64,000 bases of DNA from contig CAUJLY010000003.1 in NCBI GenBank assembly GCA_963281155.1, positions 4,774,001-4,838,000 of the forward strand. Reading direction: 5' to 3'. Source of the DNA: Rhabditophanes sp. KR3021 (Eukaryota; Nematoda; Chromadorea; Rhabditida; Alloionematidae). A program made the position numbers and the translations under genes. The notes under the pieces were generated by a model. It saw nothing but the letters and a program-made list of their open reading frames with translations. It was not told the origin of the DNA and made no database searches. Shown here one piece after another: positions 7,387 through 64,000 of this stretch. The first letter of the stretch is position 1, and each line of letters opens with the position of its first letter.

Positions 7387-10300
7387 ATGCGCTTCAGTTG
7401 GTTGACAGCTTGTGAAACGTCTACAATTGACGAACGTGAAACCGAACCGCTAATGGGGGATCAGGTGTCTATAACCACCACTAATTTTGCTGACGACTCA
7501 AATCTACTGCCTTATTCGTGCTCTGATCAACATTACTCATCCAGATTGCCTTACACAGCAACAAGAAGCAGTACAAGGCGCATTTATGAAAACATGATTA
7601 GGTAAGTATTTTATTAAACCTTTGTTTACATTCAAACCATCCTCATGTTTTGTGCCTTATGTTTTTTAAATGATTAATTTAATATTTGCTTATGTCCACA
7701 CCAACACATTTCTATATAATTATATATAACTGTATATATTCCTATATAATTTTATATATTTCGATCTATAAAGTTTTATTGAAAAGCGTAAAGCATCATA
7801 GTTAAATAATAGATAAATAATAGACAAATAATAGTCAAATAATGGGTGAATAATACAAATGTCATTTTTGAACAAATTAAGAAGATCTTTAAAACTCTCA
7901 ATTGCACATTTGTAGAGTGTTAAGAGTGATGATTACTTTTTGTCACCTTAACAATTCAGCATTACTCGAATGCACAATAATAGGTGTTATAGATGTTTGT
8001 GAAGAATATCAATTTAATGTTGACCGCCTTTCTTGAGAGTGGTTTATATTATCACGACATTAGTCTAGTTAGGGCATTAATTGTACTATTTATACAATAT
8101 TACAGATAGAGTTACATTTTCATTTCCAATTTTAGCGGAAATGATACAAAAGGCGTGTAAAAGGATCGCAATTGTACAATACAATGTTTTATCAACTTTT
8201 TTAGACAAGTATATGTAACTTTTAAATTATTCACGAAAGCTTTAAATGGAAGCTCACATCACTTTTTAGTACTCTCAACCTTATTATTTAGTGATAACAA
8301 GTTTGTGATATCAAAAATAAACACTCATTCTACACACATTCTACAAACTTCTACAAACATTCTATATACGTTTACCATTTTTCTGTCTATATTTGTGAAA
8401 ATGACCAAAAAAATCGGCCATGATTTAAATGACTATACCAGCCCAATAAGTTCAATTACTCCAATAAGTCCAATAGAGGATGAAGAAAGGGTTGTTGAAC
8501 GATCCTTTTGGGATAAAGTGTCTGTTAAACTTTGTTGTTGTTGTGAATCACCTGTCTAACTTTTTTATTATCTTTAGATGCTGCCGAAATATGTTCAGAA
8601 GGAAACCATCGCTACATTCTAGAACTATACGTTTAGGTTACGGCCCAGTTCCGGGCACTCATGCCCATTTTGTGCCAAATAAAGTGTGTAATCAAAAATA
8701 TAATGTATTCACATTTATTCCACTAGTATTATTCCAACAATTTAAATTCTTTCTTAATCTGTATTTCCTGCTTATGGCTTTTTCCCAATTTATTCCTCAA
8801 ATTCAAATTGGAGCCCCCATCACTTACTGGGGACCGCTGGGTTTTGTGTTGACAATAACACTAATCCGTGAATTTTTTGATGACTTCGCAAGATTCTTAA
8901 GGGATCGCGAAATGAATGGTGAAAAGTATGAAAAACTGACGCGAGATGGCTTTGTCACAATTAAAAGTTGTCAAATTCAAGTAGGTGACCTGATAATGAT
9001 TCACAAAGATCGTAGAATACCAGCTGACTTAGTGCTGTTGCGAACCACTGAAAGGCAGGGGGCATGTTTCATTCGTACCGATCAACTAGACGGCGAGACG
9101 GATTGGAAACTTAGAATTGCCGTGCCTTACACCCAAAATCTGGACAACGACCTTAAATTAATGTCTATCAATTGTGAAATATATGCTGAAAAGCCCCAAA
9201 AAGATATTCATGCTTTTGTCGGAACATTCAAGACATTTAATGATGACAACACTTCTCACGACGGATCACTCAATGTTGAAAACGTTCTCTGGGCAAATAC
9301 TGTTTTGGCAAATGGACACGCTATTGGATTTGTCGTCTATACGGGCAGGGAAACAAGATCAGTCATGAACACAACTGTCCCAGATTCCAAAGTTGGTCTT
9401 TTAGATATTGAGGGTTAGTTTTTATTAATTAAAAATACAAAATGGGACTAGTATTTGAAAATATATTCAATCGATGCACAGATCAAAAATCTTTTAGAAT
9501 CATTTCAGCGACTTGTCTGTTCTTCTCTGGATCCATGTAGCAAACAAATTGTAGAGATGGCTTACCTGAGTTGCAAGTAGTGATTTGATCATGATATGCA
9601 TTCAATGTTTTCAGCAATCTTTTGAGATAAATAAGTCCTTTTGATTATATTAAATCGCTTTCCTTCTTTAATCAATTTATGAAGACTTTTTCTATTCTTT
9701 CAAACACATATCCTCACTTATCAGTGAAATCGTAATCGCATTTATGTATACCTACTATTCTATTCATACGAAACCACATTATTTAGCAAATCACGTTGCC
9801 TATAATTATATTTCAAGTATTTTGCGTCTTTATAAGGAGCCATTATCTGTTCGGACCCAAACTCATTGTAACTTAGCCTACATCATCTAGATGTTTTTCC
9901 AATTAAACCAACAGCCCATCTTTTGTTCCAGGTGCCTCGTAAAGACTTTTGAGTAAAAACTCATACACTCCTCCGTGTAAAATTGTCAAGGACTCAGTGA
10001 CTACAAATATCTTTCATTGATTCGCAAGCTAACCATCATAAATGCCTTCAAATCTGAAGAATCCATATTAACATACACTAGAGCCTCACCAGAAACAACC
10101 TCTTTTGTAGAAACGTTATTGGTTAAATAGGATATATTGCAGGATGGTTGGCCGAATGCTTCAGCTTTTTTTGTTTAATATGCCTTAAAATAAATACTAA
10201 TAGGAATTAAAACTAATCCATTTCATTTGAACAAAATGCTAAGTCCTTTTCGCTACTGCAACTTCTCTTTACTTCCAATGCTAGTACTTTTTAGCAATTC

Positions 10301-62755: not shown

Positions 62756-64000
62756 ATGGTTACTGGACGATTACCAGCTTGTGTTATTGACTGTGGGACA
62801 GGTGTTATATCTTCCTTTGATCATCTTATCTAATTTTATTTTCATTTCAGGTAAACTTAAACAAACAGCGAAACTTTATTGGAAAAAGAAAATTAGAAAG
62901 ACAAAACATTTAAAGTTATCTGATCAAAATTGGTTTAATAGTCATTCCACTGATTCTGCGGACAGTGTCAGGATGTCTCAGATACATTACTTGATTTGAC
63001 TGTCCAGAATCATCCACATTAGAACACTCCTTTCGCATGCTAAATATGATAGCATATTCCAAACCAAATGCTTGACTAATGTGAGGTCATCAATGTAGAC
63101 AGCCACTAATTCTCTTTCATCCTTCCAAATAGTTCTGCACCTTTTCTCTTTGGGTCTAGTGGCATAAAACGAACCATGCACCTTTTAGTCTTTAAAAAAT
63201 GCCGTACTCTTCTTTTAACCACACCGGACACTCCTGTATAAAAGATTAGTTTCCTAAATGCAGAAAGAGATCATTTATTCGATACCAGCAGGAACGTCCA
63301 ATAACAGATAAACGGCATGCTACTTCTTTAGTGATTTGCTAGCAGTCACTTTCTTAAGTTGGCCCATTAGATGATTCCATAATTTCTTGCCACTCATTTT
63401 TGATATTTTTTAAACCTCTTTTTATACTTCTAAGGAGGATATGTATTGAATATACTCTTACACTCTTCAACAGATAGGTCATATTCTTCTTGAAGACCAA
63501 TGATTCGGAACTCCTTAGTGGATAGTCTTGAAAATTGAGGATTCAATTCATGGACATCACCTACAAGTTGATCGTTTGATAATTGCCTGCAGCTCTATTC
63601 TCTTGACGGATGGTTACAGATCTTGTTATTCTTGGTGCCGGATCACATTTGGTCTTTTTGAGAGTTTTTCCTTACAGCCGTTGTTATCTTTCATCATCAT
63701 TACGATTGTAACTGCCAACTCAAAAAATATTAATGACACTAAACAGTCACCGGGACTCTTTTTCCAAAAAAATCTTTCTTTTCATTGAGACACATTTATA
63801 TGTAAAAATATTCGCTTTAAGTTATTTTTGTTAATGAGGGGAGTGAATATAAAGGTGTTTATTGTGAGAAAACAATACAATAAATAGAAAATAAAGGTAC
63901 AAAATGTAATAACATATAATATGAATATCTGCCCATAATTTGAACTAATGTCATTTCTCCTTCTACCAGGGTATACTAAAATGGGATATGCCGGGAATTC
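62756..64000 (+). CDS. ACTR3: Actin-related protein 3, exons 1-2 (3' partial)
   Basis: Exon 1 (62756-62801) encodes MVTGRLPACVIDCGTG and exon 2 (63970 to the window end) continues YTKMGYAGNS, the start of ARP3 ([22 protein letters not shown] in animals), an ATP-binding subunit of the ARP2/3 actin-nucleating complex. The junction is in phase 1 within Gly. The intron is 1168 nt, very long for this genome; its first 49 nt (62802-62850) look like a complete short intron ending TTTCAG, followed directly by GTAAAC. It carries an antisense GIY-YIG remnant. The rest of the gene lies beyond the window. Confidence 0.93.
62987..63790 (-). pseudogene. Heavily decayed GIY-YIG-like ORF nested antisense in ARP3 intron 1 (copy e)
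   Basis: Coding-like fragments appear on the minus strand in this order: DVHELNPQFSRLSTKEFRII with YDLSVEECKSIF (about 63560-63440), then KLWNHLMGQLKKVTASKSLK, AVYLLLDVPAGIE (GIY strand, about 63316-63275), C-I-stop-ETNLLYRSVRC (about 63263-63230, equivalent to [15 protein letters not shown] of copy c, with the Gly replaced by a stop), and RELVAVYIDDLTLVKHL (about 63118-63068), which sits where copies c and d have [15 protein letters not shown] and EHVEAILIDAYCGHI, the catalytic Glu being lost. Many stops and shifts show it is dead. The YIDD motif alone could suggest a reverse transcriptase, but the flanking order supports the GIY-YIG family. Confidence 0.52.

Follow-up and report, generated by a model that had tools for sequence, protein, structure and literature searches.

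Five loci resembling GIY-YIG nuclease genes in a 64,000-nucleotide (nt) stretch of the nematode Rhabditophanes sp. KR3021 (contig CAUJLY010000003.1; hereafter the window) are, judging from their sequences, decayed and broken relics of one dispersed family. The loci, denoted a to e, were first noticed in a sequence-only reading of the window. Our analysis points to a real family that is more widespread than this reading saw, and which is best read as a family of introners with its own nuclease gene. Members are probably transposable elements that, read on the antisense strand, serve as spliceosomal introns, and they appear to have made many of the host introns themselves.

A dispersed family coding for a GIY-YIG nuclease

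The genome searched, a match to Rhabditophanes diutinus KR3021, consists of six scaffolds with a total of 44.8 Mb. Two queries located 72 and 68 family places, and a later query gave 145 places of elements with the second nuclease domain (domain B, described below; 148 rows minus 3 clathrin exons). Only 150 of the 290 candidates were scored in this later search, and the true copy number is therefore probably higher. Four profile-positive copies per 64 kb would extrapolate to thousands if spread evenly, the window having been chosen for them. A mobile or amplifying nuclease family had been suspected from the window, and the finding of a dispersed GIY-YIG family lying antisense in introns at many places agrees with it. 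Scaffold C6 (11.2 Mb, a quarter of the genome) holds 3 of the 145 places (P ~7e-15, computed with 148). This scaffold may correspond to the X-syntenic Chr6 described in the available part of PMC10676810, as judged solely by scaffold number and size.

An intact copy had been proposed as worth looking for, and one long open copy was found, L069, a copy of ~1.96 kb that has the longest frame of those found and lies within an intron of the ryanodine receptor (RyR) gene. Its frame is open for 509 codons; codon 67 is the probable start, giving a predicted protein of ~440 aa (441 aa). The order within this protein is a possible N-terminal finger, GIY-YIG domain A, a C2H2-like stretch and GIY-YIG domain B, and both domains are present in the same order in several loci. 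Members match C2H2 fingers weakly, at 0.011 in the best case. The Pfam family PF01541 (GIY-YIG) is matched above cut-off, with a best value of 6.5e-6 and matches in 10 of 12 members at E ≤0.5, and the conserved GIY-YIG motifs are present in the family alignment. An element frame is 100% identical over 86% to a public Rhabditophanes sp. KR3021 protein, and searches of protein databases matched solely proteins of Rhabditophanes sp. KR3021.

A link of the window copies to LEM-3/ANKLE1 had also been suggested. PF22945 (LEM-3_GIY-YIG) is matched by 6 of the 12 members at E ≤0.5 (best 1.3e-6), which upholds the link for these members; the L069 protein is not one of the six and does not have PF22945 among its matches. 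In LEM-3, a host gene, the nuclease is combined with ankyrin and LEM domains. Neither an ankyrin nor a LEM domain is among the matches of the 441-aa protein, and unlike LEM-3/ANKLE1 the family is amplified and has a pair of GIY-YIG domains, each with a possible zinc finger.

The best match to PF01541 in the genome (1.4e-13) belongs to L001 (C3:396736-396945), a frame separate from the family, which resembles the conserved host nuclease SLX1. At L083/L096 (C4:3573252-3576187), the public KR3021 model of clathrin light chain fuses the real gene with a fragment of an element: the model starts with this fragment, which is located in L083, ~1.7 kb upstream of the gene, and coding-looking exons are present there on the other strand. 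Apart from the exon ends, the clathrin light chain exons of the genome are identical to a UniRef protein of Rhabditophanes sp. KR3021.

Orientation and splice sites of the elements

The element is antisense to its host gene in 14 of the 14 introns with both exons read (a to e, L075, L076, L079, L081, L084, L088, L095, RyR1 and RyR2), and L077 and L078, completed later, agree with this placement. Such a rule would hold because the antisense strand of the element carries the splice sites. For 13 of the introns read, the phase chosen was the one giving the longest open reading. Ten of the 14 hosts (all but those of L081, L076, RyR1 and e) were run against Pfam and all ten gave a domain match whose best stretch includes the junction, the matches being weak for a and L088 and only just present for RyR2. 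A coding-strand test of the flanks of 93 elements (a non-random sample) points in the same direction, with 72 antisense and 21 sense at a margin >0, and 52 antisense and 5 sense at a margin >8. Both flanks agree on antisense in 26 elements and on sense in none, while 12 are mixed. An earlier and noisy exon caller applied to the same question preferred antisense in 67 of the 93 and sense in 26.

In a few genes, the element and the intron coincide. The terminal motifs leave just 16, 17 and 15 nt outside in L081, L088 and L095, respectively, so that these introns are made up of the element along their whole length. Other copies are similar in DNA to positions 219-859 in L084, 186-1146 in L088 and 206-738 in L095, as compared with introns at 220-853, 193-1153 and 221-725. 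The element end falls on the splice site at both sides in L081, L088 and L095, and at the acceptor side in L075 and L084. Read in the host direction, a 5' motif, TTAATACTTTAATTA, is matched at 12/15 or better in 7 of 16 introns, namely L075, L079, L081, L084, L088, L095 and RyR1, and in all seven an AG lies 7 or 9 nt behind it. The AG is the splice acceptor in five of these seven; the other two, L079 and RyR1, have an ordinary-looking intron directly after it, 44 and 37 nt long, respectively. The 3' motif starts 7-8 nt past the exon in a, L079, L081, L088 and L095 and 4 nt past it in e, and is farther away or was not found in the others. DNA relatives of the RyR copy share its 5' and 3' regions, and several short ones keep both ends and have no middle. 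These matches are mostly partial and 65-90% alike (excluding the query itself), a divergence by which the family could escape searches that look for nearly identical introns.

The junctions are mostly alike in sequence and in phase. The junction is AG^G in 13 of 16 introns, the exceptions being L075 (AG^C), a (GG^T) and RyR1 (TT). It had been suggested from the window that the nuclease targets splice junctions. This is partly right, in that AG^G prevails at the junctions and several elements directly abut a splice site that was already there (e, L079 and RyR1 with both exons read; L071, L085, L091 and L092 on the left side only), but most read cases have the element between two exons. The phase is 1 in 13 of 13 introns (excluding L087, which was mis-set), and also in e. 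In a larger set with donors picked by eye, which includes 18 left-exon picks and excludes e, phase 1 is observed in 29 of 31 introns (exceptions L086 and L017). From the 24 picks made for this set, L082 was dropped as a paralogue of L077, and L033, L071, L085, L091 and L092 because these picks belong to neighbouring ordinary introns. Background AG^G sites are in phase 1 in 252 of 578 cases. Ordinary introns, searched at lengths of 36-75 nt only (20 found, median 43), are in phase 1 in 9 of 20 cases (3/10, 3/9, 2/4 and 5/10 with other settings), and the difference between 29/31 and 9/20 has a Fisher P of 1.7e-4. The phase-1 element introns mostly split glycine codons.

Near-identical copies in different genes argue for movement. 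L074 and L075 are 95.8% identical over 501 bp, the host of L075 being PFK, and L077 and L078 are 93.5% identical over 695 bp, with pyruvate kinase and collagen as hosts (both named by eye). Two other pairs were noted. Two pyruvate-kinase-like genes (named by eye), at L077 and L082, have related element introns in matching positions, and the insertion may therefore predate the gene duplication. L022 (C1:4848392) and L028 (C1:4803501) are identical over 349 codons, in opposite orientation and 45 kb apart, and perhaps represent a recent inverted duplication of host DNA.

Relics in the window

The features of the five window loci are given below, with coordinates as positions in the window.

9414-10606, + strand: host intron a, 1193 nt, phase 1, in a P4-ATPase-like gene; junction GAGG^TGAA
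9477-9767, - strand: GIY-YIG domain B relic a, antisense; family profile E 6.2e-14
12346-13184, + strand: host intron b, 839 nt, phase 1, in a phospholipid-transporting P-type ATPase gene, taken as the same gene as a
12469-13061, - strand: GIY-YIG domain B relic b, antisense; 12469-12789 with E 1.7e-15, 12819-13061 weak (independent E-value, i-E, 0.0015)
15866-16746, - strand: host intron c, 881 nt, phase 1, in SERCA, inside TGDGVNDAP
15887-16585, + strand: relic c, a zinc-finger-like stretch and GIY-YIG domain B, antisense; profile E 6.6e-47
45638-46629, + strand: host intron d, 992 nt, phase 1, in a GPN-loop GTPase gene, inside the DMPGQ stretch
45746-46154, - strand: GIY-YIG domain B relic d, antisense, in two overlapping frames; 45746-45961 with E 2.2e-18, 45894-46154 with E 1.4e-9
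62802-62850, + strand: ordinary-looking intron of 49 nt directly before element e, GTGTTATATC..TTTCATTTCAG and then GTAAAC, with a zero-length exon between
62851-63969, + strand: host intron e, element part, 1119 nt, phase 1, ARP3-like; exons read by eye as CGTG^G / YTKMGYAG
62987-63790 (coordinates of the sequence-only reading), - strand: decayed element e, antisense; DNA-level evidence only

Including the 49-nt ordinary-looking intron, intron e extends over 62802-63969 (1168 nt).

The profile used for relics a to d was grown from the L069 frame, and its last round matched nothing in the window record. The match of c is not independent of the profile, because the set searched to build it included L009, whose DNA is that of copy c; a, b and d match a profile apparently built without them (6.2e-14, 1.7e-15 and 2.2e-18). 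A later profile, which may itself contain window copies, matches the window copies at 1.6e-18 to 4e-44. Copy e has no significant protein match to the family profile (best i-E 3.1, at 63097-63489). Its DNA is a reverse match to the L004 element (53.6% of 653 nt, 9.2e-12 by blastn) and to sequence adjoining that of L005 (58.8% of 478 nt, 1.3e-20 by blastn). The five related GIY-YIG copies of the sequence-only reading are thus recovered as four by protein profile (6e-14 to 7e-47) and one, e, by DNA similarity only, and they are broken relics and not intact open reading frames.

That all five lie in introns, antisense to the host, is confirmed, as hosts and elements are on opposite strands at 5 of 5 loci. 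Domain or structure matches of the joined exons test this reading in b, c and d and, less strongly, in a; locus e was read by eye. The joined exons match PhoLip_ATPase_C across the junction in b (1.2e-36, Pfam) and ATP_bind_1 across the junction in d (2.3e-53, Pfam), and align gaplessly to SERCA in c; those of a give only a weak E1-E2_ATPase match (3.6e-4, under the cut-off). Consequently, the hosts named earlier hold for b as a P-type ATPase and for c as SERCA, whereas a is weak, e is named ARP3 by eye, and d, earlier called GPN2, has GPN3 as its best solved-structure match (3e-36).

Competing explanations and known precedents

The family might instead be an ordinary transposable element, one that lands in many places and persists where a short intron was already present, its sense copies being lost as their poly(A) signal truncates host transcripts. 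We consider this unlikely, yet there is evidence in its favour. A TTTAATAAA-like poly(A) signal is seen by eye near the element 3' end, the further intron past the element in RyR1 and L079 supports it, and ~14-26 nt lie between the donor and the start of close identity in L075, L077 and L078 (by eye). The missing target-site duplication and the 9 of 16 introns without a good 5' motif are also on its side. However, the 15-17 nt left in L081, L088 and L095 are fewer than the 36-nt search minimum for an ordinary intron, complete ordinary-looking introns adjoin some elements, and phase 1 is commoner among the element introns (29 of 31) than among ordinary ones (9 of 20). The claim that the nuclease survives only where it is spliced out is not borne out in that form: an element that makes the intron is the better reading, as its antisense strand appears to carry the splice sites.

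Several observations weigh against reading the family as introners. Nine of the 16 introns have no good 5' motif, and all five window copies are among them, because of which we do not claim that intron and element coincide in the window. The 3' motif is loose (7-8 letters), the 5' motif was picked from some of the same copies, and RyR2, L076, L077 and L078 deviate from the fixed distance between motif and AG. The 5' terminal motif occurs at 157 places in the genome as against 123 for a reversed control, and counting copies by it was rejected as unusable. Looking for target-site duplications, as had been proposed, revealed none beyond AG^G, the 16 junction pairs being no better than shuffled ones (P 0.12 and 0.69); a 12-bp repeat at the collagen host of L078 was set aside since it may be just Gly-X-Y coding repetition. 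No clear terminal inverted repeat was seen in the three copies examined (RyR1, L075 and L081), with none in L075, none at the L081 ends, and a single AT-rich 12-nt inverted pair in RyR1, close to the termini of that copy. The L069 frame has no transposase or reverse transcriptase match, the scan covering the encoded protein and not the rest of the element, and it is the only long open frame among the fetched copies. Five of the 93 elements are sense at a margin >8, of which two (L024 and L054) were opened; in these and in L061 (a tie), all with a strong sense flank, antisense open frames adjoin the element and a separate gene-like frame lies farther out. As for the phase, L090 and L086 of the eye-picked set have negative coding scores and L017 has no convincing frame, AGGT sites provide a less extreme background (phase 1 in 84 of 146), and the bias has no mechanism.

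If the family is nevertheless one of introners, its spread can be pictured as follows. The nuclease protein, or an earlier intact version of it, would cut AG^G sites, and the element would be placed into the cut. Antisense copies alone would supply the host transcript with a 5' splice site from the element 3' end and with a 3' splice site from the 5' end, and only they would persist because only they would be removed cleanly by splicing. The shorter, internally deleted copies may have been moved in trans.

Introners and the shintrons of mirusviruses are close precedents that the sequence-only reading did not mention (available parts of PMC9860276 and PMC12768974). Introners are dispersed intron-forming elements with splice sites that are their own or recruited from the target, for which DNA transposition is the most consistent mechanism (Gozashti et al. 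2022, available part of PMC9860276). According to the same source, nonautonomous transposons became introners, transposase-coding mobilisers were sought separately, introners were found in just two animal groups, and other introner families are also without target-site duplication; the words nematod, Rhabditophanes and endonuclease are absent from its main text as available. Our family resembles those introners in that similar introns are dispersed over different genes of one genome and that in some copies the element ends are the splice sites. It differs in that its members code for a nuclease opposite to the splice-site strand, and in that its copies are far more diverged.

Mirusvirus shintrons are 132 spliceosomal introns with GIY-YIG nuclease genes, viral and with a target-gene preference, for which homing has been proposed (available part of PMC12768974). 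The nematode family shares with them the GIY-YIG gene inside a spliceosomal intron, and could accordingly be thought of as homing introns, carried by the nuclease from one allele or homologous site to another and nowhere else. This is very improbable in view of the near-identical copies in different genes (L074/L075 and L077/L078). In contrast to shintrons, the family is nuclear, occupies many different genes and is antisense wherever both sides of an intron were read; the available part of PMC12768974 makes no use of the word "antisense".

Fragments of Penelope-like retroelements are an explanation we give little credence, and one we rejected on the encoded protein. Penelope-like elements are mobile and integrate with a GIY-YIG nuclease (available part of PMC3846280), and the many partial copies would suit them, but the protein of the 1.96-kb copy has no reverse transcriptase match, the short copies retain both ends, and some members match the LEM-3-like family. 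Equally hard to credit are functional nested antisense genes with a host role such as DNA repair: the LEM-3-like domain fits, as does a dN/dS, counted in favour of the introner reading too, that has a median of 0.55 and is <1 in 97% of 865 usable pairs (of 3057), pairs which are non-independent and were found via protein similarity, but a single long open frame among the fetched copies and the many different host genes do not.

It is quite possible, if somewhat short of probable, that the family is the first animal introner with its own mobiliser, a GIY-YIG nuclease in place of a known transposase or reverse transcriptase. Such a nuclease would cut genic AG^G, and as the other strand of the element would be a ready-made intron, the element would both spread and hide, possibly in thousands of copies per genome. 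Neither a nuclease-coding introner family of any animal nor a description of the present family was found in the open-licence full-text literature; subscription papers could hold one. How new spliceosomal introns arise has long been asked, and for few introners is the moving enzyme known. Here a single element, from a free-living nematode that is kept in culture, would bring together nuclease, target, splicing and the antisense rule, which makes the mechanism directly testable. If the reading is true, nematodes join the animals with introners, and a link to the GIY-YIG introns of mirusviruses is given.

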